From: Gammaproteobacteria bacterium
GTDB taxonomy: Bacteria > Pseudomonadota > Gammaproteobacteria > GCA-001735895
Length of the DNA: 32,767 nt
Direction of reading: 5' to 3'
NCBI GenBank assembly: GCA_024232855.1
Contig: JAAEPH010000038.1
Span: 1-32,767 of the forward strand
Positions 589-17,352 of the stretch are shown here, in pieces (position 1 is the first letter of the stretch; each line of letters begins with the position of its first letter). The notes beneath the pieces are model-generated. The model made no database searches. It saw only the letters and a list, made by a program, of their open reading frames with translations, and was not told the origin of the DNA. A program made the position numbers and the translations under genes.

Positions 589-1629
589 CTATGATTTCAG
601 GCGCTTGCCATTTCCGACGGCGATGATTTCGGCCAGAATGGAGACCGCGATTTCGCCCGCCGAGCGCCCGCCGATGTCCAGGCCCACCGGCGCATGCAGG
701 CGCTCCAGGACCTCTTCGCCAAAACCCGCTTCGCGCAGTCGATCCAGGCGCGCGGCGTGCGTTCGGCGACTGCCCAGGCAACCGATGTAAAAGGCAGGTG
801 ACCCAAGGGCGGAATGCAGCGCGGGGTCGTCCAGGATCGGGTCATGGGCGAGAATCGCCAGTGCCGTGCGGGAATCGATAGTCAGCTCCTGCATGGCCTG
901 CTCACTTCGCTGGTGGATGATGGTAACGCCCGGCAATCGTTCGGGTCTGGCAAAGGCGGGGCGTGAATCGATCACGGTGACCTCGAAGCCGATGGCCGCC
1001 GCCATCGGCGCCAGTATCTGGGCAATGTGCACTGCGCCGACGATGATCAGTTTGCGTGGCCGGGAGTGCGTCATCACGAACAATTCGGTATCTGCTTGTT
1101 GAATAACGGTACCGCCGGATCCCTGGTTGTGCAGGCAGTGGATCTGGTTCAAGACGTCCTCGCTGAGCTGCAGCTCACCGGTGACGCTTGCGTCGTCCAC
1201 CATCAGCGTGGCGCCATTTGCCAGGTCGATCACCCGCGTAACCGGTGGATCGCCCATCATCTTTTCGAGTTCGTCCCGGGATTGTGCGCGTAAAACAAAA
1301 ACCCGGATGCGGCCGCCGCAGGTAAGGCGAACTTCCCGGGCTTTCTCGTCGCTGACACCATACTCCAGGTTCTGAGGCTCCCCGTCGGCGATAATATCGA
1401 TCGCTTCGGAGATAACAAAGGGCTCGATGCAACCACCGGAAACGGAGCCGACAAACGCACCACTGTCATTGATGGCAAGCATACTGCCCACCGGGCAAGG
1501 TGATGAGCCCCAGGTGTCGACCACTACCGCCAGCGCGACGCCCTGCCCCTCATCCATCCAGGCTATGGCCTGTTTAAGAACCTTGTCATTTCTTGGCGGT
1601 GTGTTATCTGCTGTTGACACGGGCAACAT
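589..1629 (-). CDS. xdhC: XdhC/CoxI-family molybdenum hydroxylase maturation protein
   Basis: The 346-aa protein has two parts. The N-terminal XdhC_CoxI domain carries SSPCPVGSML and the GSVSGGCIEP motif near residues 41-70. The C-terminal Rossmann-like domain carries KLIIVGAVHIAQILAP and ends with the family-typical GCLGSRRTHAARL and GLDIGGRSAGEIAVSILAE. XdhC proteins bind molybdenum cofactor, promote its sulfuration and deliver it to apo-xanthine-dehydrogenase-type enzymes in the cytoplasm. The client is evidently the three-subunit Mo hydroxylase encoded upstream in the same operon. The start ATG at 1629 is supported by CAGGAG eight bases upstream. It is the last gene of the operon, 15 bp after cobT. 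The length is typical of full two-domain members. Confidence 0.9.
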   Translation of the reverse strand: MLPVSTADNTPPRNDKVLKQAIAWMDEGQGVALAVVVDTWGSSPCPVGSMLAINDSGAFVGSVSGGCIEPFVISEAIDIIADGEPQNLEYGVSDEKAREVRLTCGGRIRVFVLRAQSRDELEKMMGDPPVTRVIDLANGATLMVDDASVTGELQLSEDVLNQIHCLHNQGSGGTVIQQADTELFVMTHSRPRKLIIVGAVHIAQILAPMAAAIGFEVTVIDSRPAFARPERLPGVTIIHQRSEQAMQELTIDSRTALAILAHDPILDDPALHSALGSPAFYIGCLGSRRTHAARLDRLREAGFGEEVLERLHAPVGLDIGGRSAGEIAVSILAEIIAVGNGKRLKS

Positions 1630-1644
1630 CTAGTACTCCTGCAT

Positions 1645-3447
1645 TTACCTGTAGCGAGCGGGGGTCGGATCGAGCAGTTCGACCAGTTCGTCCGTGACCG
1701 CACCGCTGAGTTGGTCGGCGTCGATCAGGGTCAGCGCACGCCTATAATAGCGGGTGACGTCGTGGCCGATGCCGATTGCGGAAAGTTCTACCTGACCCGA
1801 ACCCTCTATCTCGGCGATGACCTGGCGCAGGTGCTGTTCGAGGAAGGAACCATTATTGGCGGATAAGGTGGCGTCATCGACCGGTGCACCGTCGCTGATT
1901 ACGATTAGAATCCTGCGCCGCTCGGGCCTGGCCCTCAGGCGCGCATACGCCCATGCCAGTGCTTCGCCGTCGATGTTCTCCCTGAGCAATCCTTCGCGAA
2001 GCATCAGACCGAGACCCAGCCGCGCACGCCGCCACGGCACATCCGCGGATTTGTAAATAATGTGGCGTAAATCGTTGAGGCGGCCCGGCTGAGACGGTCG
2101 CCCGGCTGCCAGCCACCGACTGCGGCTGCAGCCGCCTTTCCAGGCGCGGGTGGTAAAACCGAGAATCTCGATCTTGACACCGCAGCGCTCCAGGGTGCGC
2201 GCCATCATATCGGCGGTAATCGCAGCCAACAGAATCGGCCGGCCGCGCATCGATCCGGAATTATCGATCAGACAGGTAACAACGGTATCGCGCAGCTCGA
2301 TTTCCTTTTCGCGTTTGAACGACAGCGTATTTAGCGGATTGATAACAATCCGTGATAAACGTGAGGTATCCAGCTCGCCTTCATCCAGATCGAATTCCCA
2401 GCCCCGGCTTTGCTTTGACAACAAACGGCGTTGCAGCCGGCTCGACAGGCGTCCGACAATATTACCCAGCTTGCCGATGCGGTCGTCAAGCTGGTTACGC
2501 AGGCGGAGCAGTTCCTCGCGTTCATACAGATGGCTGGCATCTACAATTTCGTCAAACTCGTCGGTGAAGACCCTGTAGTCCGGGAATTGAGCAGGGCTCC
2601 CGGCGGGAGCCTTGTATTGAATTTCCTCAGTTCCATGGTCGACGTGCTGTTCGGCATCTTCCCCGGGTGACGGAATACCGGGCAGACCTTCACGCGGCGC
2701 GCCCTGCGGCGCCATGGTAACGGCATCATCACCGCTTTCCCCGGTTGTACCCGAGCTCTCGCTCAGCGAGTTGCTCTGCACTTCCGCCAGTGAGAATTCC
2801 GGTTTGGTTTCGACCGTGTCGGATTCTGTTCCCTGGAAGCCAAGTTTCGTCAGCAACTCCCGCGCATGCCTGGCGAAATCCGCCTGCTCGCGCAGGGATT
2901 CGGCCATCGCCTGGAAATGCTCGAGCTGCGCAGTGAACACTTTCCGCCAGCCGCTAAACGCGTCCGCGGCCTCGGGCGGCGGCGCCAGATCGCCCAGAAG
3001 TTCACGCGCGAACATGACAAGCGCAATCGGAAGTTGCTCCGGCTGCAAGCCGGGCGCGCCTGACAGGGGGTTACGTGCGTATTGGTGGTGAAAATGGGCT
3101 TCAAGATTCTTCGCGACGCCATCGAATGCGCGCGCTCCCAGGCATTCGCATCGCGTCTTTTCCAGCGCCTCGAGCAAGGCCTGCGTTTCCGCCTCCGCCG
3201 CTTCGCTCGAGACAGCCAGCTCGTCATCGTGGTAGCGTAACCACGACACGGCCGCGTCCGCCTGCCCGCGGATTCGATCGATATCCGCGTCCATATCCAG
3301 GTTCGATGGCCTGTTGATGAAAACCGTGTGATCCGCTCGTCCCAGGTCGCCGGGTTTGAAACGGACCATCAGTTCCGGATCCTCGGACAGCACCCGGGCC
3401 GTGGCCGCGGTGACGTCCTGGAAATCTGTTATCTGTTCCGACTCCAC
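1645..3447 (-). CDS. cobT: Cobaltochelatase CobT-like subunit with VWA domain
   Basis: This 600-aa protein has an N-terminal helical region, an acidic, low-complexity middle (about 205-285) and a C-terminal von Willebrand A domain. The VWA MIDAS motif is DNSGSM at 395-400, followed by the CobT-typical [13 protein letters not shown] and [10 protein letters not shown]. CobT and the AAA+ protein CobS form the chaperone-like part of aerobic CobNST cobaltochelatase, which inserts Co2+ into hydrogenobyrinate diamide. The start is GTG, three bases after the cobS stop, so translation is probably coupled. The large subunit CobN is not in this window. An alternative is that the CobST pair serves metal or corrinoid handling for the neighbouring methyltransferase. 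It differs from the shorter CoxE VWA proteins of CO dehydrogenase clusters. Confidence 0.88.
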
Positions 3448-3450
3448 GAT

Positions 3451-4437
3451 TCAATGGGTTTCAGGTTGATTGTTCACCACGCTCTCCGGAAGATCCCGGC
3501 CAAAACAGCGCTGGTAGTACTCGGCAACCGTGGCGCGTTCCAGAATGTCACATTTATTGAGGAATGTTATGCGAAACGCAAAATCGATGTCCTTGAAAAT
3601 TTGCGCATTCTGCGCCCAACTGATCACCGTCCTCGGACTCATTACGGTGCTGAGATCGCCGTTTTGAAACCCCGTGCGGGATAAATTCGCCAGCTTGACC
3701 ATCGCCGGGATGGTACCGGGTTCCGTATCCCACTCCGGCACTTTGGCCCCGACAATGTCGATCTCGGTATCGGGCGGCGGATAATTCAGGGTGGTGATGA
3801 TATTCCATCGGTCAATCTGGCCCTGGTTTAGCGGCTGGGTACCGTGATAGAGCCCGGTGGTATCGCCGAGTCCCACGGTATTGGCGGTTGCGAACAGCCG
3901 GAATGACGGATGCGGGTGCAGCACACGGGACTGGTCGAGCAGGGTCAAACGGCCATCCGCCTCGAGCACGCGCTGGATAATGAACATCACGTCGGGCCTG
4001 CCGGCATCGTACTCATCGAACACCAGTGCAATCGGATGCTGATACGCCCATGGCAGAATGCCTTCCCTGAATTCGGTTATCTGCTTGCCGTTGTCCAGCA
4101 CGATGGCATCTTTTCCGATCAGGTCGAGCCGGCTGATGTGGCTGTCCAGGTTGATGCGCACGCAGGGCCAGTTCAAGCGTGCGGCGATCTGCTCGATGTG
4201 CGTGGACTTACCGGTACCGTGAAATCCGCTCACCAGTACACGGCGGTTGTGAGCGAACCCGGCAAGTATGGATAGCGTCGTATCGTGATTGAAACAATAG
4301 CCAGGGTCGACATCGGGCACGTGTTCGCTGGGGCGGCTGAAGGCGGGGACTTCCATGTCCACATCCAGTCCAAAGGTCTGCCGTACCGATACCGTCAGGT
4401 CCGGCACAATCGGTACATCCCCTTCGAAACTGATCAA
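3451..4437 (-). CDS. cobS: Cobaltochelatase CobS, AAA+ ATPase subunit
   Basis: The protein is 328 aa, close to the usual CobS length. Walker A is GFHGTGKST (71-79), Walker B is LVFDEYD (138-144), and a sensor-like [14 protein letters not shown] follows. The stretch [21 protein letters not shown] is strongly CobS-like, so this is a canonical CobS rather than a generic MoxR/CoxD ATPase. With CobT it hydrolyses ATP to drive cobalt insertion during aerobic cobalamin synthesis. The start is TTG at 4437: GGGAGG lies six bases upstream, while the nearby ATG in the same leader hits TGA two codons later. It sits directly after the corrinoid protein gene (33-bp gap), which suggests cobamide supply to that protein. 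Confidence 0.9.
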
Positions 4438-4470
4438 ATCATCCTCCCGGTAATCCAGGCTATTCTACCC

Positions 4471-5157
4471 TCAAGCTTGCGCCGTGGCACGTGACCGGTT
4501 GACGCCCATCAGGCCATCGAGCTTGAATACCGCGTCCTGCGCATCGAAGCCAACCGCATCGGCGCCGATTTCATCGGCAAATTCCTGGGTTACGGGGCAG
4601 CCGCCGACGATAACCTTGATATCGTCGCGCATACCGATTTCCTTCAATCGAATGATGACTTTTTCCATTTCCATCAGCGGCAGCGTCAACAGGGTCGACA
4701 TACCGAGCACATCGGCATCGTGCTCCTTCAGCGCATCGATGAATGCGTCAACATCGATATCGATACCGATATCGACCACATCGTAACCATTGGCCTGCAT
4801 CACGGCGGCGACAACGGATTTTCCAATGTCATGGATATCACCCTTGATGGTGCCGATGACGACCTTACCATGGGATGCGCGTTTTTCGCCGCTTGCCTTG
4901 ATCCTTTCATCGAGTATGGTGGTGCCCTGCTTCATCACATCCGCGGCCATTGCCAGTTCGGGCAGGAAGATGATGCCGGCGCCAAAGTCTTCACCAACCT
5001 TGTCGATACCCCGGGCCAGACCTTTTTCCACCGCGTCGAGCGGGTCGACACCAGCGTCCAGCCCTTCGTTGACCAATTTGACGCATTCTTCATCTTCACC
5101 ATCGATAACCGTCAGCGCCAGTTTTTCAAAATACTCTTCATTAATTTCGATACTCAT
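4471..5157 (-). CDS. Corrinoid protein (MttC/MtbC-type, B12-binding) for methyl transfer
   Basis: The product is 228 aa. Residues 1-90 form the helical cap domain (B12-binding 2). Residues 97 onward form the Rossmann-like cobalamin domain, with the lower-ligand motif DIHDIGK (His109), the MSTLLT loop and the VGGCP motif. Such proteins carry a corrinoid whose Co(I) accepts a methyl group from the partner MttB-type methyltransferase and hands it to a second methyltransferase. I chose ATG 5157 instead of the track's 5325. It has GGAGG eight bases upstream, the homology begins there, and the upstream 56 codons overlap the mttB 3' end. It lies 28 bp downstream of mttB. No RamA-type activator or methylcorrinoid:THF methyltransferase gene is visible. 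Confidence 0.93.
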   Translation of the reverse strand: MSIEINEEYFEKLALTVIDGEDEECVKLVNEGLDAGVDPLDAVEKGLARGIDKVGEDFGAGIIFLPELAMAADVMKQGTTILDERIKASGEKRASHGKVVIGTIKGDIHDIGKSVVAAVMQANGYDVVDIGIDIDVDAFIDALKEHDADVLGMSTLLTLPLMEMEKVIIRLKEIGMRDDIKVIVGGCPVTQEFADEIGADAVGFDAQDAVFKLDGLMGVNRSRATAQA

Positions 5158-5185
5158 GAGGATTTCCTCCACTATCTGTTTATTG

Positions 5186-6643
5186 TTAACCGAGGTCACG
5201 CTGCATGCAGAAATCAAGGTAGGAATCGAGTTCCTGCTGAATTTCAGCCGCCACGGGTGATTGGTGGTTGTCCAGGATCGAGAGCGCCTTCTGTTTGGCT
5301 TTTTCCTGCAGCTCGACATGTCCACGTTGCCAGGATTCGAAGAACTCCTTGTTGTTCAGTTCGGGCATGAAAAATTCTTCGCGGAACCATTTGCGGGTGT
5401 GCTTTTCCTTCATGTAGCTGCCCGGTAGAGGACCGACTTTCAGGATCGTATCGACGGAGAGCCGTTCTTCATCGATCTGGATACCCTTCAGGTACTCACC
5501 GATGTAGGCTACCATCTCGTTTTCCAACACCATTTCCGGCCAGGACACCAGGTTAAATCCTGCCGTCCCGCCAAGATCAATAATCCAGCTCAGGCCGGCA
5601 AGGGCGTAGTTATAGTTTTTCAGCGCCTTTTCATGGGCGGTCTGCTGATCAAACTCGCAAGAGTCACTCATGCCAAAGCCGACCACGGGTATATTGTGAT
5701 ATTTCGCCATGGCCGCAATACCACCGCCATTGATACCGTATTCCGGTGTGCCGGTTGCCCACAAACCGGTACGCATATCCATGGCGGGGTTGAACGAACA
5801 AAATGCCAGCGGATGCCCGGGTTTATAGCTCTGCGACTGAACCACAAGCGAATAAATTTCGACCATGCACTGCACCAGCATGCCGGCGCGGGTGGCCGGG
5901 CCGGTGGCGCCGCCCATCAGGGCACTCTCGATGGAAAGCGGTGTGCCGCTGTCGCAGAAGCCTATCAACCAGTCCGTGTAATGTACGTCAATGACCCGCG
6001 GCGGGTTGACCACGACATGGCCCAGCATATGCGGTTTCTGCCGCATTTCCTCTTCGCCGCCGACTGCTATCTGCCACATCTTGATCAAATCGGATACTTC
6101 GTGCTCGGCACCGGTGTTGTAAACCCAGGTACCGGGCTTGTTGGTGTGTTTCATCCATTCCGTAGTCAGGATCTGGGAGTTGCAGATCATTTCTTCGTCA
6201 AAAAGCCACATCACCGGTTTGTAGAGACCGTGCACGTTTTCGAGGGCATCGGCCATCAAGGTGCCGTCGATGGCATCCTGACGCGTGACCTTGCGGCGCT
6301 CACCGGTACGGATGTCGTCGATATATCGCCCGGTTACCGTGCAGAAGTGGACTTCCCCGGTGCCGATAGAACAATCTTTGGTCGGATCATTACGGCCGTG
6401 CAGGGTGAAGCTACCGGGGCATTTAGCCAGGGCATCCATGACGGCCTTTTCCGGAATCTTGACCAGTTCGCGGTTGTTTTCAAGCGTGCACCCGGCGTCT
6501 TCGAACATTTTGGCCGCGCGCTCATCGTCGCAGCGCACACCCCCCTGTTCGAGAACACGAATGGCGGCATCGTGTACCATTTTGCACTCATCCCGGGTAA
6601 TGGGATGAACGCTGCCAACCAGTTTTCCATCGAAACCCTTCAT
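5186..6643 (-). CDS. mttB: MttB-superfamily quaternary/tertiary amine:corrinoid methyltransferase (non-pyrrolysine)
   Basis: The 485-aa protein belongs to the trimethylamine methyltransferase superfamily (COG5598). Supporting signs are the N-terminal HDAAIRVLEQGGV, the central GATGPATRAGML, the PGHPLAFCSFNPAMDMRTG region and the C-terminal HTRKWFREEFFMPEL. The frame is complete and needs no amber read-through, so this is a non-pyrrolysine member. Characterised members of this group demethylate betaines (glycine betaine, proline betaine, carnitine), passing the methyl group to a cognate corrinoid protein. That partner is encoded immediately downstream. The ATG is preceded by GAGGGG. An 80-bp leader with an 18-bp-period direct repeat separates it from the DMGDH-like gene. 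The substrate cannot be read from sequence. Confidence 0.93.
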   Translation of the reverse strand: MKGFDGKLVGSVHPITRDECKMVHDAAIRVLEQGGVRCDDERAAKMFEDAGCTLENNRELVKIPEKAVMDALAKCPGSFTLHGRNDPTKDCSIGTGEVHFCTVTGRYIDDIRTGERRKVTRQDAIDGTLMADALENVHGLYKPVMWLFDEEMICNSQILTTEWMKHTNKPGTWVYNTGAEHEVSDLIKMWQIAVGGEEEMRQKPHMLGHVVVNPPRVIDVHYTDWLIGFCDSGTPLSIESALMGGATGPATRAGMLVQCMVEIYSLVVQSQSYKPGHPLAFCSFNPAMDMRTGLWATGTPEYGINGGGIAAMAKYHNIPVVGFGMSDSCEFDQQTAHEKALKNYNYALAGLSWIIDLGGTAGFNLVSWPEMVLENEMVAYIGEYLKGIQIDEERLSVDTILKVGPLPGSYMKEKHTRKWFREEFFMPELNNKEFFESWQRGHVELQEKAKQKALSILDNHQSPVAAEIQQELDSYLDFCMQRDLG

Positions 6644-6656
6644 TATCTGACCCCTC

Positions 6657-6690: not shown

Positions 6691-6723
6691 AGTTTGTCTT
6701 AAATCCCGGAATTTTCCCGGACA

Positions 6724-9171
6724 TTACATCTTCACCCTGGTGCCGGCCGGATCGTAAAAAGGCTTCATTGATGCCTCGGCAGGCCAGGTTTCACCAGCGA
6801 TTTCAATCTCGAAGTTCGCATTATCGATCTGCTCGGCGGTAACGCCGTCGGGGTGGCTGACATAGCCCATTCCGACCGCGCTGCCGAGCGAGAAACCATA
6901 GGCGCCCGAGCTCAGGTAGCCGACGATCTCGCCATTCATGCGGATCAATTCGTCGTGAAACAGCGCGGGTCCCGGATCTTTCAGTTTGAACAGAACCATT
7001 TTTCGATTCAGCACCTGCCCGGCCTGGGGCAGCAGGGCTTCGCGGCCATTGAACCCGCCGGGCTTGTCCATTTTCACGATAAAGCCGAGACCGGCCTCGA
7101 ACGGCGTGTCGTCGGGAGCCAGATCGAGCACGAACTCCCGATAGCCGCGTTCGCAGCGCAGGTGCTCCAGGGCGTGATAACCGGCCTGCTTCAAACCGAA
7201 CGGCTTGCCTGCTTCGATAATAATGTCATAGACATCCTGGACGAATTCCGACGGGATTTGCAGCTCCCAGCCCAACTCGCCGATGAAGGTCTGACGTTTG
7301 GCCAGCACGCGGGCATAACCGATATCGATCTCCTGCGCGGTGAGAAATGGAAAAGCCGAATTGGAAAGATCGGCATCGGTAATGGATTGCAGCAGGTCAC
7401 GCGATATCGGACCCTGAACATTAAGCACCGAGTAGGCGGCGGTGACATCGGTAATGGTGACATGCCGGTCGGGCCCGATGTGCATGGCGATCCAGTTCAT
7501 GTCACGGCAATGCACCCCGGCCGACGAGTATATGATGAAGCAATCCGGTGCGCGACGATCGATGGTGATGTCGCATTCGATACCGCCCATCGAGTTGAGC
7601 ATATGGGTGTAGACCAGTTTGCCAACGGCAACGTCAACGTCGCTCACGCACATCCACTGCAGATACCGGCAGGCATCGCGGCCCTGGATCAGGGTCTTGC
7701 CGAAGGAACTGACGTCCATGATGACCACGCCTTCACGCGCGGCGCGGCACTCCTCGGCGGTGTGTTCATACCAGTTGGGCCGGAAGTAGGAGTATTCGTT
7801 TTTCGGCGCCGTGCCCACGGGGGCAAACCACATGGGACGTTCCCATCCGGCGGTCTCCCCGAAACAGGCGCCGCTGGCGGCGAGCCTGTCGTGCAGGTGG
7901 CTTTTACGCGCCGGGCGCGATGTTTCATGATCCTTGAAAGGCCAGCCCATTTCAAAAGTGCTGCCAAGCGACTCGGCGGCGCGTTCACGCAGGTACTTTT
8001 TGTTGACCTGGAAGGGGTGGAAACGCGCCACATCGTAATCGAGCAGGTCCATGTCCGGTTCGCCGTTGATGATCCAGTGGGCCAGTGCGCGCGCGATGCC
8101 CGGGCTGATTTCAAAGCCTTCGGAATTGAGCCCGGCGGCAATGAAACAGTTGCGCAGGCCGGGTGCCTCCCCCAGGCACGGCAGGTTATCCGGGGTAAAA
8201 CTTTCCGGCCCGTTCATGAACCGGTTGATGCCGATGTCCGCAAGCTGCGGGATCATTTCCATGGCCCTGGTATAAGGCAGCTCGAAGTGATCCCAGTCTT
8301 CCTGCAGCTCGATGAACTGTTGCTCGCGGGGCAGGTCCTCGAGCGGCAAGGGCTTGCCGCGTGGCTCGAAGGAACCAATCAGCAGCTTACCGGCTTCCTC
8401 TTTCATGTAGGTATAGCCGTCCGTGTCGCGCAGCACCGGCAGGGTCGGCACGATGAAGTCCATGGGCTCCGTCACGACATACATGTGTTCACAGGCGTGC
8501 AGCGGTACCCGCGCGCCGAGCTGAGCCGCAAAATCCCGCGTCCACAGGCCACAGGCCAGCACCAGGGTTTCGCATTCAATGTCGCCGCTTGTTGTTTCGA
8601 GCCAATACTCGCCCGAGGGCAGGTGCTGCATTTTGGCCACGGTCGTGTCTTCAAAAATTCTGGCGCCGCGTTTTTTTGCACCGGCGATCAGGGCGTTGAT
8701 GGTATCGACCGGGCTCAACTGTCCGTCTTTGGGAATGAACAGGCCGCCGGCGACAACGCGTTCATCGAGCGCGGGGTACATGTCCTTGACTTCCCACGGT
8801 GAAATAACATGGGCATCGATGCCGAAACTCCTGGCGAGGCTGGCGCGCCGGCTCATTTCGTGAACGCGGTCGCTGTTGCGGCCGATGGCAAGGGTGCCAT
8901 TTTGCTTGAAGCCCGTTGCCATGCCGGTATCGACTTCGAGTTCGGGATAAAACTGCGCATTGTATCTGGCAACATCCGTCGTCGCATGGCTGCCGCGGAG
9001 CTGCATGATCAATCCCGCCGCATGCCAGGATGTCCCGCAGGCAAGGGCGCCGCGCTCCAGCAATACGACATCCGCTACTCCGGCCCTGGTGAGTTGATAG
9101 GCAATTGAACTTCCGACGACACCGCCACCCACGACGACGATGCGAGCGTGACTGGGCAGGTCCTTACTCAT
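6724..9171 (-). CDS. Dimethylglycine/sarcosine dehydrogenase-like flavoprotein with GcvT domain
   Basis: The 815-aa protein has the DMGDH architecture. An N-terminal DAO/FAD domain carries VVGGGVVGSS at 13-22 and GTSWHAAGL, with His50 at the covalent flavin position. An FAO_M linker domain lies around 370-430. C-terminal GcvT aminomethyltransferase domains (about 440-810) include the family-typical ECDITIDR and GELGWELQIP. Family members oxidatively remove N-methyl groups from dimethylglycine, sarcosine or similar secondary and tertiary amines, and transfer the one-carbon unit to tetrahydrofolate. It follows the Mo subunit by 34 bp and precedes mttB, so it plausibly takes the methyls that MttB does not. 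The length is near that of DMGDH. Substrate identity (DMG, sarcosine or another N-methyl amino acid) is not resolved. Confidence 0.9.
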   Translation of the reverse strand: MSKDLPSHARIVVVGGGVVGSSIAYQLTRAGVADVVLLERGALACGTSWHAAGLIMQLRGSHATTDVARYNAQFYPELEVDTGMATGFKQNGTLAIGRNSDRVHEMSRRASLARSFGIDAHVISPWEVKDMYPALDERVVAGGLFIPKDGQLSPVDTINALIAGAKKRGARIFEDTTVAKMQHLPSGEYWLETTSGDIECETLVLACGLWTRDFAAQLGARVPLHACEHMYVVTEPMDFIVPTLPVLRDTDGYTYMKEEAGKLLIGSFEPRGKPLPLEDLPREQQFIELQEDWDHFELPYTRAMEMIPQLADIGINRFMNGPESFTPDNLPCLGEAPGLRNCFIAAGLNSEGFEISPGIARALAHWIINGEPDMDLLDYDVARFHPFQVNKKYLRERAAESLGSTFEMGWPFKDHETSRPARKSHLHDRLAASGACFGETAGWERPMWFAPVGTAPKNEYSYFRPNWYEHTAEECRAAREGVVIMDVSSFGKTLIQGRDACRYLQWMCVSDVDVAVGKLVYTHMLNSMGGIECDITIDRRAPDCFIIYSSAGVHCRDMNWIAMHIGPDRHVTITDVTAAYSVLNVQGPISRDLLQSITDADLSNSAFPFLTAQEIDIGYARVLAKRQTFIGELGWELQIPSEFVQDVYDIIIEAGKPFGLKQAGYHALEHLRCERGYREFVLDLAPDDTPFEAGLGFIVKMDKPGGFNGREALLPQAGQVLNRKMVLFKLKDPGPALFHDELIRMNGEIVGYLSSGAYGFSLGSAVGMGYVSHPDGVTAEQIDNANFEIEIAGETWPAEASMKPFYDPAGTRVKM

Positions 9172-9205
9172 GGGGTGTATATTTTCTGCAAGAGTTTACC
9201 GCCTC

Positions 9206-11533
9206 TCAGCGGCTTGCCTTGTTTTCATTGATCGCCCTCAGCACTTTTTCCGGCGTCAATGGCAGATCATGAATACGGGTTCCGATGGCGTCGGCAACCG
9301 CGTTGGCAATGGATGCGGCAACCGGGGCAAACACCGGCTCGCCGATGCCCTTCGATCCGAAGGGGCCAAGGCCGCTGCGGGATTCGAGCACGATGGACTG
9401 GATCTCCGGCACGTCTTCGGAGGTGGGTATCAGGTATTCGCTAAAGGATCCGTTTTTCAACACGCCCTTTTCCAGGATCAACTCTTCGCTGAGCGCAAAA
9501 CCCTGCCCCATCAGGGCACTGCCCTCGATCTGGCCTTCCACGGCGCGCAGGTTGATCGCCTGCCCAACGTCATGGGCGCCGACGCTTTTGATCACGGTGA
9601 CTTCGCCGGTATCGATATCGACGCTGACCTGGGCCGCATGCGCGCCATAGGTGAAGTCCGGAAAAACCTCGCCCTGCCCGGTTTCCGGATCGAGTCCTTC
9701 GCTCGGCGGCGCCTTGAAGATGGACAGGTTGTGACGGTGCACCCCTTCGGCGGCACAGAGCTTGACCATGTCCTTGATCGACATGCGGCGCTCCGGATTA
9801 TCCAGAACAAAGACCGTTGAATCCGCCAGATCGAGTTCATCGGGGGATACCTCGAAGTGCCTCGCCATGCATTGCAGCAAGTTATCGCGCACCGCGCGGG
9901 CGGCCAGTTCGGTGGCCTTGCCGCTCATGTAAAGCGCGCGGCTGGCGGTGGATGTGCCGGCCAGCGGGTTGACGTGGCCGTCGCCGAAGTAGACGGTAAT
10001 CTCGTCCATGGGCACACCGAGGATCTCACCGGTGATCTGGGCCAGTGCCGACATTTGCCCGGCGCCGATATCGGTTACCGCGCATCGCACGATAGCCGTG
10101 CCGTCCATCTCCAGGCCTACCCAGGATTCAGAAGTATCCTTCATCCAGCGGATCCGGCCGTAACTCTGCTGGTAGCAGGCAATGCCATGACCATAGACCA
10201 GGTGTTCGGAATTGCTCGGCTGCTCACCCAGGGCGGCGAGCGCCTGAGTGGCGCACTGATCGCACCAGACCGAACTGCGGATGATCTGGCCGGTGGTATT
10301 GGGATCGCCGGGCTGAATAAAATTCTTGCGGCGCAATTCCAGTGAATCCATGCCAATCAGTTTGGCAATCTCTTCCATCTGTGCTTCGCAGGCGGTATTG
10401 GCCTGCATCGTCCCAAATCCGCGAAAAGCACAGGCCGGCAGGTTGTTGGTTGCCGCCGAGGTGGCATCCACCCATAGATTGTCGACGCGATAGGGTCCGG
10501 TCGCTCCGACCGTTGCATAGAGCAGGATATAGGGGCTCAGTTTGGCATAGGCGCCGGCATCCGATGTGAGCTTGATTTTCATCGCGGTGACCTTGCCGTC
10601 TTTGGTTACACCGGTCTTATGGGTAATGGTAAACGGGTGGCGCGGGCCGTGGGACAAAAACGAATTCTCGCGGGTCTGGATCAGCTTCACCGGTCGCTTC
10701 GTGTCCATGGCCAGCAATGCCAGCCAGACCTCGATGGTCATGACCTCCTTGCCACCGAAACCACCGCCGATGTAGGGTGCCTGCAGGTGAACCCGGTTGT
10801 GCGGAATGCCAAGCGCATTGGCCACGGCGCGAAAGTGTTCGACCACCTGCGTGCTGGATCGGATATTGAGGATTTCATGTTCGTCGACCCAGGCGACGGC
10901 GGCCTCCGGTTCCATAAACGCCTGTTCCTGATATTGCGAGGTAAAGGTGTTTTGCAGAACATAATCGGCTTCGTCAAAGCCCTTCTCGATATCGCCCTTG
11001 CGTATCTTGTAGTCGGCGACGATGTTGTCATCGCTGTAAACGATTGCCGCACCGGGTTTTTGCGAATCAAAAGGATCGTAGACGCCCTCGGTGTCTTCAT
11101 AGTCCACGACGATCAAATCCAGTGCCTGCTGGGCAAGTTCATAGGATTCCGCGGCGATAAGCGCGATGGGCTCACCGTGGAAACGTACCCGGTCCGCCGC
11201 CAGGATAGGTTGCGTGGTGTCCTTGGTGCCGCCGCCGGTCTGGCCGGGCAGATCGGTCATCACGGCATTACAGGCGGTAAGATCAGCGGCCGTCAGCACG
11301 CTGTGCACACCGCGCAGTGCCCTGGCGGCCGATATGTCGACATTCCTGATGTTGGCGCTGGCGCGATCACTGTGCAGCACCTTGGCGAACAGCATGTCTT
11401 CCATGTAAAAGTCACCGGCGTAGATTGCCTTGCCGTGAACTTTCGTGGGCGCATCGTTACGTGGCTTGTTCTTGCCGACCTGTCGCAGGTTTACATTGGC
11501 AATCGAGCCGGGAAAAGCTTCGGTCTGATTCAT
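9206..11533 (-). CDS. Xanthine dehydrogenase-family hydroxylase, molybdopterin-binding large subunit
   Basis: The product is 775 aa and contains the aldehyde oxidase/xanthine dehydrogenase a/b hammerhead and Mo-binding domains. Visible motifs are GGGFGGKE, which contacts the cofactor, ACAFRGFG, and the C-terminal GSKGIGEP, whose Glu is the catalytic base. Enzymes of this family hydroxylate carbon next to nitrogen in N-heterocycles, or oxidise aldehydes, using water. The gene overlaps the 2Fe-2S gene by 4 bp (ATGA). With the FAD subunit it makes a CoxSML/NdhFSL-type heterotrimer. The hyuAB genes upstream make a heterocycle-to-lactam reaction the most sensible role, but this is inference. XdhC for cofactor loading is in the same operon. 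Confidence 0.93.
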   Translation of the reverse strand: MNQTEAFPGSIANVNLRQVGKNKPRNDAPTKVHGKAIYAGDFYMEDMLFAKVLHSDRASANIRNVDISAARALRGVHSVLTAADLTACNAVMTDLPGQTGGGTKDTTQPILAADRVRFHGEPIALIAAESYELAQQALDLIVVDYEDTEGVYDPFDSQKPGAAIVYSDDNIVADYKIRKGDIEKGFDEADYVLQNTFTSQYQEQAFMEPEAAVAWVDEHEILNIRSSTQVVEHFRAVANALGIPHNRVHLQAPYIGGGFGGKEVMTIEVWLALLAMDTKRPVKLIQTRENSFLSHGPRHPFTITHKTGVTKDGKVTAMKIKLTSDAGAYAKLSPYILLYATVGATGPYRVDNLWVDATSAATNNLPACAFRGFGTMQANTACEAQMEEIAKLIGMDSLELRRKNFIQPGDPNTTGQIIRSSVWCDQCATQALAALGEQPSNSEHLVYGHGIACYQQSYGRIRWMKDTSESWVGLEMDGTAIVRCAVTDIGAGQMSALAQITGEILGVPMDEITVYFGDGHVNPLAGTSTASRALYMSGKATELAARAVRDNLLQCMARHFEVSPDELDLADSTVFVLDNPERRMSIKDMVKLCAAEGVHRHNLSIFKAPPSEGLDPETGQGEVFPDFTYGAHAAQVSVDIDTGEVTVIKSVGAHDVGQAINLRAVEGQIEGSALMGQGFALSEELILEKGVLKNGSFSEYLIPTSEDVPEIQSIVLESRSGLGPFGSKGIGEPVFAPVAASIANAVADAIGTRIHDLPLTPEKVLRAINENKASR

Positions 11534-12018
11534 GCTGCTTCTCCCTCCCCGCGCAACTCCCTGGCGGCAAGCTGCACGGCTTCAAAGATTCGGGTGTATC
11601 CGGTACAGCGGCACAGGTTACCGCTCAAACCGCGTTTGACGTCGGCAAGCGACGGATCCGGATTGTCTTTCAGCAAGGATCTTGCCGCGATAATCATGCC
11701 CGGCGTACAGTACCCGCACTGCGCGGCGCCGGTTTCGATGAAGGCCTTTTGCAGTGGATCGGCATTGCCCGGCTGACCAATGCCCTTGATGGTGGTTACT
11801 TCGCGACCATCGGCATGCCAGGCAAGGGTCAGGCAACTGTCGACGGGTTCTCCGTCGAGTAATACCGCGCAGGCGCCGCAGTCGCCCTTTTCACAGCCGC
11901 ATTTGATTTCCACGAAGCCTTCATGGCGCAGGGCTTCGAGCAGCGTGCGATGCGCCGGTGTGGCAAGTTTTACCGTGCTTCCGTTTACCGTGACGGTGAC
12001 GACTTTTTCATTGCTCAT
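11530..12018 (-). CDS. Xanthine dehydrogenase-family 2Fe-2S small subunit
   Basis: The 162-aa protein has two [2Fe-2S] sites. The plant-ferredoxin-like N-terminal domain has CGCEKGDCGAC with a later partner Cys (DSCL). The helical C-terminal domain has CGYCTPGM and CRCTGY. It relays electrons from the Mo site of the large subunit to the FAD subunit. The length and motif spacing match CoxS/NdhS-type subunits. The start ATG at 12018 has GAGG upstream. Its stop overlaps the start of the large subunit gene by 4 bp, and the FAD subunit gene ends 15 bp upstream. The three genes therefore form one translational block. Confidence 0.95.
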   Translation of the reverse strand: MSNEKVVTVTVNGSTVKLATPAHRTLLEALRHEGFVEIKCGCEKGDCGACAVLLDGEPVDSCLTLAWHADGREVTTIKGIGQPGNADPLQKAFIETGAAQCGYCTPGMIIAARSLLKDNPDPSLADVKRGLSGNLCRCTGYTRIFEAVQLAARELRGEGEAA

Positions 12019-12033
12019 AATCTAATCCTCTTA

Positions 12034-12894
12034 TCAGGAAACCTGTTTCCAGGCTTGGGTCAGCAGGCGGCGGGTCAGCGAAAATGCCGTCTGCAACCGG
12101 TAATCGGCGCTGGCGCGTATATCATCGATGGGTGCGCACTGGTCGGCCGCGGCCCTGGCGGCCTGCTCGATGATGGCTTCGTCGAGCGCCTTGCCCGCCA
12201 ACAGGTCTTCGGCGGCGCTGGCGCGGAAAACAGTCGGAGCGACCGAGCCCAGGGCAATGCGCGCGCGGGTACAAACCCCGTCCTCGGCGGCGATCATCAC
12301 CGCTACCCCGGTCACGGTGATGGCATCGCCCTTGCGTCGGGCGAGCTTGTAGAAAAGGTTGGCGCTGTTTTGCGGTGGAACATTCCACGACACGGATGTC
12401 AGTAGTTCATCGGAACGCAAAACGGATTTCTTGTAATCGATATAAAACTCGTCAAGTGCAACCGTGCGTTGTCCGCTAACGCTGCTCAGGGTGACCTCCG
12501 CGTCGACGGTCAGCAACGCCGGCACCGTGTCGGCCGATGGAGACCCGCAACAAACGTTGCCGCCAATCGTTGCTGCCGTGCGCACCATGCGGCCGGCAAA
12601 TATTTCCGCCGCGGCATACAGCGCGGGAGCATCCGTCCTGATGCCGCTGTCGTCGAGAATGTCCGCCATGGTGGTACGCGCACCCAGCGTCACGCGATCG
12701 CCATCGCGTTTGATGTAACGCAGTTCATTCACGCCATCCAGCGATACGAAATCTCTGCAGGTTTCGCGCTTGCCACGCAGATCCGGGACCAGGTTGGTGG
12801 CGCCGGCAAGCGGCCGGGTATCGCCCTTTCCGGCAAGCGCCTGCAGGGCATCGGCCAGCGATTGTGGCTGTGAAAGATCAAAGGGAGGTAACAT
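12034..12894 (-). CDS. Xanthine dehydrogenase-family FAD-binding medium subunit
   Basis: The protein is 286 aa, typical of CoxM/NdhF-type subunits. FAD-binding motifs are AGATNLVPDLR near residues 30-40 and TAATIGGNVCCGSPSADT around 105-125. A C-terminal CO_deh_flav_C domain follows. It accepts electrons from the 2Fe-2S subunit and passes them to NAD+ or a respiratory acceptor. The start is supported by GGAGA ten bases upstream. It is preceded by the SDR gene with a 23-bp gap. The gene order FAD, FeS, Mo is that of the medium-small-large arrangement common for bacterial heterotrimers. Confidence 0.93.
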   Translation of the reverse strand: MLPPFDLSQPQSLADALQALAGKGDTRPLAGATNLVPDLRGKRETCRDFVSLDGVNELRYIKRDGDRVTLGARTTMADILDDSGIRTDAPALYAAAEIFAGRMVRTAATIGGNVCCGSPSADTVPALLTVDAEVTLSSVSGQRTVALDEFYIDYKKSVLRSDELLTSVSWNVPPQNSANLFYKLARRKGDAITVTGVAVMIAAEDGVCTRARIALGSVAPTVFRASAAEDLLAGKALDEAIIEQAARAAADQCAPIDDIRASADYRLQTAFSLTRRLLTQAWKQVS

Positions 12895-12917
12895 GGAATT
12901 TCTCCTGCTCTAACAAA

Positions 12918-13700
12918 TTAGACGGCCCAACCGCCACAGATAACCATTTCCTGGCCGGTAATGTTCTTCGAGTCATCGCAGGCCAGGAAGACGACGGCGT
13001 TGGCGATATCCTGCGGGGTGGTTACGCGGCGCAGCGCCATTTCCGACACGTAGTCCGCGTATTCCTCTTCATAGGTGGTACCTTTGACCCGGGCTTTTTC
13101 CTGGCACAGTTTTTCCATGCGCGGGGTTTCGACAATTCCGGGCATGATGGCATTGACGTTGATATTATATTCGCCGCAATCGAGCGCCGCGGTACGGGTC
13201 AAGCCTCGAACGCCCCACTTCGAGGAGCTGTATCCGGCCCGATAGCGGTACCCCTTCAGGCCGGACGCGCCACCGATGTTGACGATCTTTCCAGACCTGC
13301 GCTCGATCATGGCGGGGATGGCATATTTCATCGGCAGGAAGGTTCCGATGATGTTCTTTTGTAGCAGGGATTCGAAATCCTCCCTGGAAATATCCCATAC
13401 CGGGGTTTCGATGGGACCGGTGGCGCCGGCGGCATTGACCAGAACGTCGATGCGTCCATCAAAAAACCGGCTGGCCTCGGCGACCATGTTTTTGACCCTT
13501 TCGTCATCGGTAACGTCGCAGGATATCGCGGTTGCCCTGGTGCCGGACGCCTTCAACTCCTCGGCCAGTTCCTCGATTGGACCCGGGGTGCGGGCAACCA
13601 GCGCGAGATTAGCCCCTTCCCTGGCGAGCTGTCGGGTTATCGTGCCACCCATGCCCTGGGCTGCGCCGGTGATGATTATGTTTTTCTGTTCGAGTCTCAT
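12918..13700 (-). CDS. SDR-family NAD(P)-dependent oxidoreductase
   Basis: The 260-aa protein is a classical short-chain dehydrogenase. It has the cofactor motif TGAAQGMGG at 11-19, NAAG near residue 88, a catalytic Ser in the IGGASG region, and YSSSKWG supplying Tyr and Lys. The C-terminal GGWAV end is usual. It would oxidise or reduce an alcohol/ketone in the pathway, with the substrate unknown. It overlaps hyuB by 4 bp (ATGA), so its translation is coupled to the hydantoinase genes. A role after ring opening or on a hydroxylated intermediate is an inference from position only. Confidence 0.9.
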   Translation of the reverse strand: MRLEQKNIIITGAAQGMGGTITRQLAREGANLALVARTPGPIEELAEELKASGTRATAISCDVTDDERVKNMVAEASRFFDGRIDVLVNAAGATGPIETPVWDISREDFESLLQKNIIGTFLPMKYAIPAMIERRSGKIVNIGGASGLKGYRYRAGYSSSKWGVRGLTRTAALDCGEYNINVNAIMPGIVETPRMEKLCQEKARVKGTTYEEEYADYVSEMALRRVTTPQDIANAVVFLACDDSKNITGQEMVICGGWAV

Positions 13701-15325
13701 GGCTGCGCGTTCTCCTGTGAGTTGCGTGTTGCAGGCGCGGCATAACCCCCGCCGCCACTGGTTTTCATGATAATCCGGTCGCCCTGCTGCAGGCGCAGGT
13801 GGGTTTTGCCGGGAACATTGGTGGTTTCACCCGAAGCACGCTGCAGGGTGATTTCGAAGGTTTTGCCCGCTTCGCCGCCCCGCAGGCCATAGGGTGGAAC
13901 GATGCAACGCTCCACCATGGAAGTCATAACCACTTCCGGGCCGTTTATATAATAAATTCGAACCTGGCCATCGCCGCCGCGGTGGGCACCCTCGCCGCCA
14001 GAGCCGCGGCGCAGCGCCTGTTGCTCGATAATAATGGGATAGTTGGCTTCGATCACTTCGGCCGGGGTGTTCATTACGTTAGACATGTGCGGGCGCACCA
14101 CGCTCATGCCGTCGCGATCATGGCGCGCGCCTTCGCCACCGCCGTGAACCTCGTAGAGTGTGGTCCACTGCCCGGTGCGTGGATTGCGGCCGCTGAACAG
14201 CAACAACCCGGATGTGGTAGAGCTGCCCGCGCTGAGGCGTTCCGGCACGACATTTTCAAAGGCGTTGAATATGGCATCGACGATTCGTTGCGATGTTTCG
14301 TGATTGCCACCGACCACCGGCTTCTCCACGGAAGGGTGCAGTAGCGATCCCTCGCGGATAATAATCTCGAGCGGCCGCGCGCATCCCGCGTTGGGCTGGA
14401 TATCGGGTCCGGCGATGACCTTCATGGCGTAAAAAACGCTGGCTGATGCGGTGAACGGGGTCGCATTGAGCGGTCCCGCCGCGGCATCGCCGGTCTCTGA
14501 AAAATCGAAAGTCGCGTGTTCGTCGAAAATCTCGATACGCACGCGTACCGCAATGGGCTCGCCGCCGAGGCCATCGTCATCGAGCCAGTCCTCGCCCTGG
14601 TAGACACCGTTGGGTAAGGTTCGAATCGCGGCCCGCATTTCCGCTTCCGACTGATCGTGCAAATCGGCAATGGCGGTACGCACGGTGGCGGCGTCATAGC
14701 GTGAGAAAACTTCCTGCATGCGTTCGTCGGCGGAATAGGTCGATGCCATTTGCGCCAGAATATCGCCCTCACGCTCTTCCGCGCCGCGCACGTTGGCGAG
14801 AATCATGTCGAGCTTTTCGCGATCCGCGCCGTCTTTGTTAAACACGCGCAAGGGCGGAATGCGCAAGCCCTCCTGCCATGCATCACGGGCGTCGGGAACG
14901 TAGCTTCCCGGTCTGGCGCCGCCGATGTCGGCCCAGTGGGCGAGACTGACGGCGTAGGCCTGTATCCTGTTTTCAGCAAAGATCGGGCGAATGGCCTTGA
15001 CGTCCGGCAGATGGTTGCCGCCGGCTTCCGGCAGGTTCAAAAACCAGACATCACCGGGCTGCAGTTTTTCTGCCGGGACACGCTTGAGAAATTCCTGCAC
15101 CGTGGAACCCATGACGCCCAGGTGTGCCGGAATGTCGCGGCCCTGGGCAATCAGGTTGCCCGCGCTGTCGGTCAGCGCCGAAGACAGGTCGCCGGCTTCA
15201 CGCAGCAGCGGCGAGCGCGCCGAACGCATGACAATCAACGACATTTCTTCGGCGATGGCGGTCAGCGCATTGCGGATCACTTCGACGGTGAAAGGATCAG
15301 GCCGTTGACTGGATTTTGCACTCAT
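13697..15325 (-). CDS. hyuB: Hydantoinase B/oxoprolinase-family subunit (HyuB)
   Basis: The protein is 542 aa. It starts with DPFTVEVIRNALTAIAEEM, the typical HyuB beginning, and carries GDLSSALTD, PGDVWFLN and the late GSGGEGAHRGGDG and TSGGGGYA glycine-rich motifs. HyuB pairs with HyuA in ATP-dependent opening of cyclic amides: N-methylhydantoin, 5-oxoproline and N-methylpyrrolidone are known substrates of family members. Start ATG 15325 overlaps the hyuA stop by 4 bp, and its own stop overlaps the SDR gene by 4 bp. Related carboxylases (acetone, acetophenone) also belong to the superfamily. The Mo hydroxylase and N-demethylation genes here favour a cyclic amide substrate. Confidence 0.92.
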   Translation of the reverse strand: MSAKSSQRPDPFTVEVIRNALTAIAEEMSLIVMRSARSPLLREAGDLSSALTDSAGNLIAQGRDIPAHLGVMGSTVQEFLKRVPAEKLQPGDVWFLNLPEAGGNHLPDVKAIRPIFAENRIQAYAVSLAHWADIGGARPGSYVPDARDAWQEGLRIPPLRVFNKDGADREKLDMILANVRGAEEREGDILAQMASTYSADERMQEVFSRYDAATVRTAIADLHDQSEAEMRAAIRTLPNGVYQGEDWLDDDGLGGEPIAVRVRIEIFDEHATFDFSETGDAAAGPLNATPFTASASVFYAMKVIAGPDIQPNAGCARPLEIIIREGSLLHPSVEKPVVGGNHETSQRIVDAIFNAFENVVPERLSAGSSTTSGLLLFSGRNPRTGQWTTLYEVHGGGEGARHDRDGMSVVRPHMSNVMNTPAEVIEANYPIIIEQQALRRGSGGEGAHRGGDGQVRIYYINGPEVVMTSMVERCIVPPYGLRGGEAGKTFEITLQRASGETTNVPGKTHLRLQQGDRIIMKTSGGGGYAAPATRNSQENAQP

Positions 15326-17352
15326 GCGTCTGTCCCCGCGGTAATGATCAGGTGACCCGTGGAATCGATCCAGGCGGTTGCCCCCGGCGGCAGGACAATG
15401 GTCGACCAGTCATCTTCTATGATGGCCGGACCCCTGACTTCCCAGTCAACCGGCAGGGCGCCGCGTTCATAGCGATCGGTTGAGACCGGCCCAGCGGTAT
15501 CGAACCAGCAGTCATCCACCGAGATCGGCGCCGTGGATTTTTCCCGCCCGGCTTCCCTGAGATCGGCAAAGCTGCTTTGTGATGGTGCGCTAACGGTGAT
15601 CCGCAACGATTCGAATTGCCAGGCTTCCTCGGTGGCGAAACCATACAGTTTACGGTGCCGCGCCATGAAATCCGCCCCCAGCGTTGCGGGATCACAGGGC
15701 AACACAAAGGGTACCTCCACCGTATCGCTCTGCCCGGCATATCGGATCAGGCCGATAAAAAGGGCCTTGATGGCGTCGGCCTGATGACCGGCGGCGACGA
15801 TGGGGGCGCTCAAACGATCCTGCATTGACTGGCAAAGCGCATTCAGGCGTTCGCTATCCCAGTCGGTGCTGGGCATGCGCACGGTATGTTGCTCTGCATA
15901 GCTGAGTTCGGCCGTCAGGCAGCCAAGGGCGGAAAATACGCTGGAGAATTTTGGCACCACCACCCGGGCAATACCGAATTCCCGGGCGAGCGCCACGGCA
16001 TGCATGGGGCCGGCGCCACCAAAGGCGATCAACGAACAGGATCGGGCATCGACGCCGCGCTTCACCGTAACCCGGCGCAAGGCGCGCGCCATGGAAGCAT
16101 TGGCCACCCGATATACGCCGAGGGCGGTTTCTTGAACCGATGTGCCGAAGCTATCGGCGAGGGGCTTGATGGCGGCCGCGGCGGAATCCAGGCTAAGACG
16201 GATGTCGCCACCGAGTAATCGTTCGCGGTTGAGATAACCCAGCACCAGGTTGGCATCGGTTACCGTCGGCACCACGCCGCCCAACCCGTAACAGGCCGGG
16301 CCGGGCCGGGAACCGGCGCTGTCGGGCCCGACGCGTACGGCAGAACCTTCCGCGCGCGCAATGGAACCGCCACCGGCGCCGATGGATTCAACCGCAACCA
16401 TGAGCTGGCGCACCGGGCGGCCGGCAAGATGCTGGTCACTGCCTACCTGGACCTTGCCATCGATCACTACGCAGGTATCGGTGGTAGTGCCCCCCATATC
16501 GAAACCAATAGCGTTGTCGAGCCCAAGTTCGACGCTTATCTTGCCTGCCGCGGCCACGCCGGCGGCGGGGCCCGACAGGGCAAGCGTCAGAGGGCGGTCC
16601 CTGACCGCCTCCACCGATGCCATGCCGCCGGCGGAGTGAAACAGGTGGATATTGGTGTCATCGCCGGCCCCGGCTTTGAGTTTGGCCAGGTAGCCTGCCG
16701 TCAGCGGCATCAGGGCGGCACTTAATATGGTGGTGTTGGTGCGTTCGAACTCGCGCGGTTCAGGGCTCATTCGATGGGAGAGGGCAATATGTTTGACCGT
16801 GCCGGATAGCTGCTCAGCCAGCCTGTTTTCGTGGTCGGCATTGACGAAACAGTGCTGCAGCGCGATGGCTACGGTATCGACGTTCAAATTATCGATGACC
16901 CCGGCCACGCGACGCGCTTCGTCTTCAGTCAGGGGCTTGAGGACCTGGCCCTCGGGTCCGATCCGCTCGATCGCCTCGATGCGGTGGTTTTCCGGAACCA
17001 GGGGCGGCAGCTTCGGCGTAACCTGCAGGCGATAAAGCTCGCGCCGATTCTGGCGTCCGATTTCGATCGTGTCGCGAAAACCCTCCGTCGCCACCAGCAC
17101 AACCGGTGCAAGATTGCCCTCGACGATGGCGTTGGTGGCCATGGTGGTGCCGTGCATCAAGTCGGAAACCGTGGCCCAGCCGACATCTATGGCTTCATAA
17201 GCCGAGACAATGCTGGCAATCGGATCATCGGTCTGGCTGCTGACCTTGGCGGTCCTGATTTCACCATCGACAATATTGATGGCCAGCACGTCGGTAAACG
17301 TGCCGCCGATATCGATGCCGACTTTCCAGGTACTTTTATTGTTGCCACTCAT
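15322..17352 (-). CDS. hyuA: Hydantoinase A/oxoprolinase-family ATPase subunit (HyuA)
   Basis: From ATG 17352 the product is 676 aa with the ASKHA-type phosphate-binding motif GIDIGGTFTDV near residue 12. It continues with LMHGTTMATNAIVEG, GPAAGV, GFDMGGTTTD and FGGAGPMHA, all typical of the Hydantoinase_A family. It supplies the ATP-dependent activation step for cyclic amide hydrolysis with HyuB. I shortened the track ORF (GTG 17418). The extra 22 residues have no family match, lie within the presumed promoter leader, and homology starts right after MSGNNKSTWKV. It is the first gene of the operon, divergent from the LysR gene, with a 200-bp gap between starts. Confidence 0.92.
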   Translation of the reverse strand: MSGNNKSTWKVGIDIGGTFTDVLAINIVDGEIRTAKVSSQTDDPIASIVSAYEAIDVGWATVSDLMHGTTMATNAIVEGNLAPVVLVATEGFRDTIEIGRQNRRELYRLQVTPKLPPLVPENHRIEAIERIGPEGQVLKPLTEDEARRVAGVIDNLNVDTVAIALQHCFVNADHENRLAEQLSGTVKHIALSHRMSPEPREFERTNTTILSAALMPLTAGYLAKLKAGAGDDTNIHLFHSAGGMASVEAVRDRPLTLALSGPAAGVAAAGKISVELGLDNAIGFDMGGTTTDTCVVIDGKVQVGSDQHLAGRPVRQLMVAVESIGAGGGSIARAEGSAVRVGPDSAGSRPGPACYGLGGVVPTVTDANLVLGYLNRERLLGGDIRLSLDSAAAAIKPLADSFGTSVQETALGVYRVANASMARALRRVTVKRGVDARSCSLIAFGGAGPMHAVALAREFGIARVVVPKFSSVFSALGCLTAELSYAEQHTVRMPSTDWDSERLNALCQSMQDRLSAPIVAAGHQADAIKALFIGLIRYAGQSDTVEVPFVLPCDPATLGADFMARHRKLYGFATEEAWQFESLRITVSAPSQSSFADLREAGREKSTAPISVDDCWFDTAGPVSTDRYERGALPVDWEVRGPAIIEDDWSTIVLPPGATAWIDSTGHLIITAGTDA

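Follow-up and report, generated by a model that had tools for sequence, protein, structure and literature searches.

Corrinoid-dependent demethylation of glycine betaine by MtgBCD, together with RamA and DUF1638, is described for aerobic marine bacteria (PMC12478193). Here we analysed an operon of 12 genes (positions 589-17352) in a 32,767-nt window, the whole stretch of DNA under study, from contig JAAEPH010000038.1 of a gammaproteobacterial genome (GCA_024232855.1; hereafter G000). The operon and its partner genes resemble the MtgBCD system in having an MttB-family methyltransferase, a small corrinoid protein, a pterin-binding methyltransferase (MeTr), RACo/RamA and DUF1638, with the methyl group passing to tetrahydrofolate (THF), and both systems occur in marine Alpha- and Gammaproteobacteria. 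However, the MttB of the operon is distant from the glycine betaine enzymes of solved structure, and it is wired to a molybdenum (Mo) hydroxylase, a short-chain dehydrogenase/reductase (SDR) and HyuAB under a LysR box of its own. We favour, at about an even chance, the reading that the genes belong to a catabolic regulon of uncultured marine bacteria, spread by horizontal transfer and controlled by LysR, for a cyclic quaternary amine with N-methyl groups.

The caprolactam route comprises the lactamase CapAB, an omega-aminotransferase and a dehydrogenase (PMC6061476), and the metal ligands of CapB have been described (PMC8453981). It shares with the present genes a two-subunit ATP-dependent lactamase with its metal ligands kept, a class III aminotransferase and aldehyde oxidation; however, it lacks corrinoid demethylation, a Mo hydroxylase and an N-demethylase, and HyuAB of the operon scored far below the CapA/CapB equivalog cutoffs (NF050156/NF050157; 418 and 262 vs 1000). 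ATP-dependent lactam opening on an N-heterocycle is also known for IaaCE in indoleacetate metabolism (PMC5214803; table in PMC8453981). The IaaCE pathway differs in its aromatic indole substrate, its coenzyme A (CoA) chemistry and the lack of methyl removal. Its lactam is made by a Mo hydroxylase. In the N-methyl-2-pyrrolidone pathway, a HyuAB-type opening of an N-methyl lactam by NmpAB yields an N-methyl omega-amino acid; this pathway begins at the lactam and has no MttB, Mo or DMGDH module. We found no paper in which MttB is combined with both a Mo hydroxylase and a hydantoinase, which is weak evidence, as preprints and most subscription papers lay outside the coverage of the search; a hydantoinase gene is drawn in anaerobic MttB clusters in PMC9768040. 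We regard the operon as a new combination of known modules.

As the first-pass annotation of the window had claimed, all 12 genes lie close-packed on the minus strand, with three 4-bp overlaps (hyuA/hyuB, hyuB/SDR and FeS/Mo-large) and otherwise gaps of 3-80 bp, the longest separating the DMGDH-like gene from mttB (Table 1). Pfam matches were unambiguous for every gene but that of the SDR, which matched the general SDR family only, and catalytic motifs were intact in those enzymes that were checked. A search for close relatives of MttB in one genome per species, with the flanks annotated by similarity, revealed seven further loci and thus eight carriers including G000; the other seven, all marine, are from the Rhodospirillales, the Rhodobacteraceae (two) and the Hyphomicrobiales, plus three that carry the label Gammaproteobacteria or Proteobacteria. 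One genome goes under both G369 and G386. Every locus retained mttB with the corrinoid protein gene, hyuA-hyuB-SDR and the LysR gene, in differing gene order. Two of the seven other loci are interrupted by contig ends; the XDH-type Mo trio was present wherever the contig reaches that region, and the DMGDH-like gene wherever that part was assembled (the G375 contig stops within the SDR gene and shows none). In G370, the Mo enzyme of the window type is replaced by an unrelated Mo trio (~29% identity) and CoxG, although mttB there is still 91% identical. Identity between the classes was 84-93% for mttB and, outside G370, 83-90% for hyuB; it was 58-61% between the alpha and gamma types of LysR. 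The recurrence of this set in seven other genomes, albeit in rearranged form, shows that the grouping is not due to chance.

The expected co-occurrence of all twelve families held for the core in the eight genomes, but cobS-cobT are inside the operon in only two (G000 and G386) and xdhC is near the cluster in three; by this distribution, cobST and xdhC are lineage-specific additions outside the conserved unit. The exact set of twelve is not that unit, and the pathway also needs MeTr, RACo and DUF1638, and probably an aminotransferase, an aldehyde dehydrogenase (ALDH) and a second SDR, all encoded outside the window. An mttB orthologue was found only in G000 among 369 genomes sampled across the class. 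Because hyuA was carried, among the sampled genomes of the same genus or family, only by G000 and by one of ~27 others (G386), the cluster is, judged from its occurrence, an accessory, horizontally moving island and not part of the lineage core.

An imperfect inverted repeat of 25 bp, AGATAAATTGAAATTTAGCTTATCA, is common to the intergenic regions between hyuA and the LysR gene, where a further conserved element, ATAGCT, precedes it. Searching the whole G000 genome with the 21-bp core of this predicted LysR site gave only two sites with zero mismatches, one in the hyuA promoter and the other in the promoter of a MeTr-RACo-DUF1638 cluster; the reversed pattern gave no match in the whole genome. 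A weight matrix detected strong copies before MeTr-RACo in G000, before the aminotransferase-SDR-ALDH cluster in G386 (upstream of the aminotransferase gene) and before MeTr in G370. Weaker copies precede mttB in three alphaproteobacterial loci and the DMGDH-like gene in G370. After single-base shuffling of the same 441 kb, 0-2 matches exceeded the lowest threshold and none the next, and a generic promoter and terminator scan gave nothing informative.

At the other loci, the genes for MeTr (a PF00809 methyl-THF:corrinoid methyltransferase), RACo (a PF14574 reductive activator) and DUF1638 adjoin mttB or lie near the cluster. Their orthologues in G000 are on contig C91 (79%, 79% and 62% identity, respectively), and the genome encodes the full gene set for Mtg-type THF-linked demethylation (MttB, corrinoid protein, MeTr, RACo/RamA and DUF1638). 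Because the same box stands in front of hyuA and the MeTr cluster, the two unlinked halves, the hyu/mttB operon and MeTr-RACo-DUF1638, form one predicted regulon, to the extent that a common operator is evidence of one. On C91, the MeTr-RACo cluster behind the box has a kynureninase-like gene as its divergent neighbour (L059, 8911-10104). Contig C527 of G000 carries the class III aminotransferase (77%), the second SDR (61%) and the ALDH (78%) genes; in G386 these modules form one cluster ~8 kb past the divergent LysR gene. The nearest solved relatives of the aminotransferase are 5ghf and 6g4b, the latter presumably the caprolactam-pathway enzyme of P. jessenii. MobA-like Mo-cofactor genes adjoin the aminotransferase clusters in G000 (on C527), G371 and G386, and a third distinct XDH-type Mo trio lies beside the box-controlled aminotransferase cluster and the MobA-like gene in G386 (L056, 7457-11072).

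The shared box also bears on whether two separate pathways, general quaternary-amine demethylation and an unrelated lactam or ketone degradation, reside on one mobile cluster. A related HyuAB in Tistrella (50-63% identity) adjoins a class III aminotransferase where mttB is not present, and G000 encodes ~17 further full or near-full MttB genes scattered in other contexts, both of which would suit such a split. However, the same LysR box stands before both modules and their linkage has outlasted rearrangement in eight genomes of two classes, and we judge two pathways to be quite unlikely. Routine separation and independent regulation of the hyuAB/Mo and mttB/corrinoid blocks, named in the first-pass annotation as the observation that would count against it, is not what the loci display: the blocks co-occur and share the box. 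Its proposal that a single pathway handles an N-methylated ring compound finds good support in the eight-genome co-occurrence and in the box before the unlinked MeTr-RACo-DUF1638. Plasmid-borne MttB relatives were only ~30% identical, and the closest plasmid DMGDH-like gene (61%, Mesorhizobium) sits between betaine transport and ectoine genes, with no mttB or Mo genes; none of these relatives (MttB, Tistrella hyuAB or the Mesorhizobium gene) reveals the substrate.

The mttB gene is a 485-codon open reading frame (ORF) without an internal stop and hence without an in-frame TAG for pyrrolysine. Its product matched PF06253 over its full length (cutoff, 25 bits) and fell below the equivalog cutoff of the pyrrolysine trimethylamine methyltransferase model TIGR02369 (306 vs 525), and its best solved relatives were the glycine betaine methyltransferase structures 2qne and 9yce. 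The start of the corrinoid protein was corrected to the ATG at 5157, which has a ggagg site; the ORF at 4471-5325 begins too early. The best solved relatives of HyuA were the N-methylhydantoinase 7hk5 and 6yra chain A, and in an alignment of HyuB to 6yra chain B, the residues aligned to the CapB metal ligands Asp41, His99, Asp102 and His124, plus Tyr136, were all identical. Hydantoinase-type enzymes have two subunits, whereas carboxylases have a third (gamma) subunit (PMC5214803); the two subunits of HyuAB, encoded in the order A-B with no gamma gene, fit an ATP-dependent cyclic amidase (Hyd/Cap/Opl). Because the ligands and Tyr136 are identical and the third carboxylase subunit is missing, HyuAB is classed from its sequence as a two-subunit ATP-dependent cyclic amidase. 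It is remotely homologous to acetone and acetophenone carboxylases, as expected of an ATP-dependent ketone carboxylase acting after the SDR makes a ketone; however, the subunit criteria of PMC5214803 and the much higher scores to lactamase/hydantoinase structures make such a role very improbable. Mo-large had 4-hydroxybenzoyl-CoA reductase and nicotinate dehydrogenase as its best solved relatives and carries the FRG (AFRGFG) and GxGEP motifs, the latter with the catalytic Glu; together with the FAD and 2Fe-2S subunits, it corresponds to an XDH-family Mo hydroxylase. The DMGDH-like flavoprotein scored 451 bits to human DMGDH (5l46), keeps the FAD-site WHAAG motif and has the DAO, FAO_M, GCV_T and GCV_T_C domains of the DMGDH/DMGO family.

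From these module identities and the shared promoter box, we infer, as the most parsimonious reading, a substrate class and an order of steps in which a cyclic N,N-dimethyl quaternary amine would be converted via an N-methyl lactam and an omega-amino acid to a diacid. In the first step, for which the module is assigned by homology, MttB would move one methyl group to the corrinoid protein and MeTr would transfer it to THF, with RACo and DUF1638, encoded with MeTr on the other contig behind the same box, re-reducing the cobalt. The Mo hydroxylase, served by XdhC, may then oxidise with the SDR the ring carbon adjacent to N to give the N-methyl lactam, which HyuAB, an amidase by class, would open with ATP to an N-methyl omega-amino acid. 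The DMGDH-like flavoprotein would take the second methyl group as methylene-THF, and the class III aminotransferase and ALDH may convert the omega-amino acid to a dicarboxylate. This route is favoured by the retention of the set in eight genomes of two classes despite rearrangement, and by the one box that links hyuA, MeTr-RACo-DUF1638 and, in G386, aminotransferase-SDR-ALDH. Also in its favour are the accessory genes shared with the glycine betaine system, the caprolactamase ligands and two-subunit layout of HyuAB, the closest relatives of the aminotransferase and the MobA-like genes beside the aminotransferase clusters. Several points weigh against it: Mo hydroxylases normally act on sp2 carbons, and a saturated ring would first have to become an iminium, for which no gene is an evident source; the SDR is left without an assigned role; the Mo trio of G370 is unrelated, and the actual Mo step may thus not be the proposed one; and the box is not present at the aminotransferase-SDR-ALDH genes of G000.

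Because Mo enzymes prefer sp2 carbons, the main rival is an aromatic N-methyl substrate of the homarine, imidazolium or histidine type, which we consider possible but doubtful. The candidates are N-methylated heteroaromatics or histidine-type betaines, namely homarine, trigonelline, zooanemonin/norzooanemonin, hercynine or another methylated histidine. MttB would take the N-methyl group; where they occur, the aminotransferase, a thiamine pyrophosphate (TPP) enzyme and ALDH would trim the side chain; hydroxylation of the aromatic ring beside N would fall to the Mo enzyme; and HyuAB would open the hydantoin or lactam. Such a substrate agrees with the usual sp2 preference of the XDH family, with the AFRGFG/GxGEP motifs and with the N-methylhydantoinase as best solved match of HyuA, and in indoleacetate metabolism an oxo-heterocycle is the substrate of a gamma-lactamase from the hydantoinase family (PMC5214803). 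Also in favour, two alphaproteobacterial loci include a TPP-dependent decarboxylase. However, this enzyme was not found at most loci; moreover, a ring reductase, a carbamoylase and a Hut-type gene are all absent from the conserved set, and the pair of omega-aminotransferase and ALDH suits the lactam route better. A proline-type betaine would run from stachydrine through N-methylproline and N-methyl-5-oxoproline to N-methylglutamate (by HyuAB) and glutamate (by the DMGDH-like enzyme). HyuAB does belong to the 5-oxoprolinase/hydantoinase family, and demethylation of proline betaine is known for members of the MttB family (MtpB, cited in PMC12478193). However, this route is unlikely, and proline betaine is among the weaker fits of the candidates named in the first-pass annotation, because N-methylproline could lose its methyl group directly, so that neither the Mo nor the Hyu step would be needed; nor would the route account for the co-conserved aminotransferase, ALDH and SDRs.

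The MoxR-VWA activases CoxDE, NorQD and CbbQO pair a MoxR-type AAA+ ATPase with a VWA partner, beside an XdhC gene, in a metalloenzyme operon. The pair in the present operon differs from them in being CobS/CobT by sequence (CobT, 610 vs a TIGR01651 cutoff of 759, is below that cutoff). The operon CobS shows 67-71% identity to alphaproteobacterial CobS but 61-64% to the native gamma copies of the lineage, and it was therefore acquired by transfer, either together with the island or onto it. The genes cobS-cobT follow the corrinoid gene only in G000 and G386; G374 has no cobS in the stretch after the corrinoid gene and a CobT fragment of the same type on another contig, and CobT is wholly missing from G370, whose Mo trio is different. 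Neither CobN (PF02514) nor CbiC/CobH (PF02570) had a match in G000 (97% complete), G386/G369, G361, G265 or G154, which excludes a cobaltochelatase role for CobST as far as the assemblies show; the four alphaproteobacterial carriers have both. Replacement of RACo, which the alphaproteobacterial loci have where the operon has cobST, was rejected given the RACo orthologue behind the same box in G000. We tentatively propose, at somewhat less than an even chance, that CobS-CobT is an ATP-driven activator or cofactor-insertion machine like CoxDE or NorQD, an alphaproteobacterial-type pair recruited by gammaproteobacteria without CobN or corrin synthesis. It may serve either activation of the Mo hydroxylase or handling of the corrinoid protein; the former would suit the likeness of cobS-cobT-xdhC to coxD-coxE-coxF and the lack of CobT in G370 with its other Mo enzyme.

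Two other CobS-CobT contexts were observed. On the Pandoraea oxalativorans plasmid pPO70-1 (L104, 7002-9839), cobS-cobT come directly after ureG in a urease cluster, which hints, by analogy, at a general metalloenzyme role. A second, native pair lies beside a PhoH/PIN gene with no cobalamin genes in G000 (C202; L004/L005) and in same-genus loci (L040-L047), a lineage without CobN or CbiC.

The class I S-adenosylmethionine (SAM) methyltransferase next to the LysR gene weakly resembles the corrinoid-associated CpaM (NF043040, 47 bits vs a cutoff of 180). Beyond this pair, at 20021-32682, are genes for a GFA-family protein, a ChaN/Tiki-PDZ protein, an M1-peptidase-like protein, a cytochrome c oxidase and SCO1 cluster and an MFS transporter, with no obvious link to the operon. 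Near the contig start, a C-terminal remnant of MttB (120-356, plus strand) runs toward the operon end, and 3-119 (plus strand) is presumably the tail of an IS66-type transposase.

Table 1. Features of the operon and its flank in the window
Feature	Position	Strand	Evidence
xdhC, Mo-enzyme maturation factor	589..1629	-	PF13478, PF02625
cobT, VWA partner of CobS	1645..3447	-	PF11775, PF06213; DxSxS motif
cobS, MoxR-type AAA+ ATPase, alphaproteobacterial type	3451..4437	-	TIGR01650, 563 bits, over cutoff; Walker A/B
Corrinoid protein, cognate to MttB	4471..5157	-	PF02310+PF02607; DIHDIG motif (DxHxxG)
mttB, non-pyrrolysine MttB-superfamily methyltransferase	5186..6643	-	PF06253, 264 bits
DMGDH-like flavoprotein with THF-binding GcvT domain (oxidative N-demethylase)	6724..9171	-	PF01266+PF16350+PF01571+PF08669
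Mo-cofactor large subunit (Mo-large), XDH-family hydroxylase	9206..11533	-	PF02738, PF20256
2Fe-2S subunit (FeS), Mo hydroxylase	11530..12018	-	PF01799, PF00111
FAD subunit, Mo hydroxylase	12034..12894	-	PF00941, PF03450
SDR-family NAD(P) dehydrogenase	12918..13700	-	PF13561/PF00106; YxxxK and TGxxxGxG motifs
hyuB, metal-binding hydrolase subunit	13697..15325	-	PF02538, E=1e-175
hyuA, ATP-binding subunit of predicted ATP-dependent cyclic amidase (lactamase/hydantoinase)	15322..17352	-	PF01968/PF05378; start ATG at 17352
Predicted LysR-type box, 25 bp, AGATAAATTGAAATTTAGTTTATCA	17442..17466	-	hyuA promoter; conserved in all 8 genomes
LysR-type regulator, divergent from hyuA	17553..18548	+	PF00126+PF03466; orthologue at every locus
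Class I SAM methyltransferase	18517..19470	+	PF08241; kept near cluster in G386 and G371

If the proposed route for a cyclic quaternary amine is correct, these genes would constitute a full aerobic route for a marine quaternary N-heterocycle, and ring oxidation and ATP-dependent ring opening would be added to the oceanic corrinoid demethylation recently shown for glycine betaine. The presence of CobST in genomes lacking CobN makes a second function of this 'cobalamin' ATPase directly testable, and the box together with the gene set can serve as a marker in the search for cultured carriers and for the substrate.

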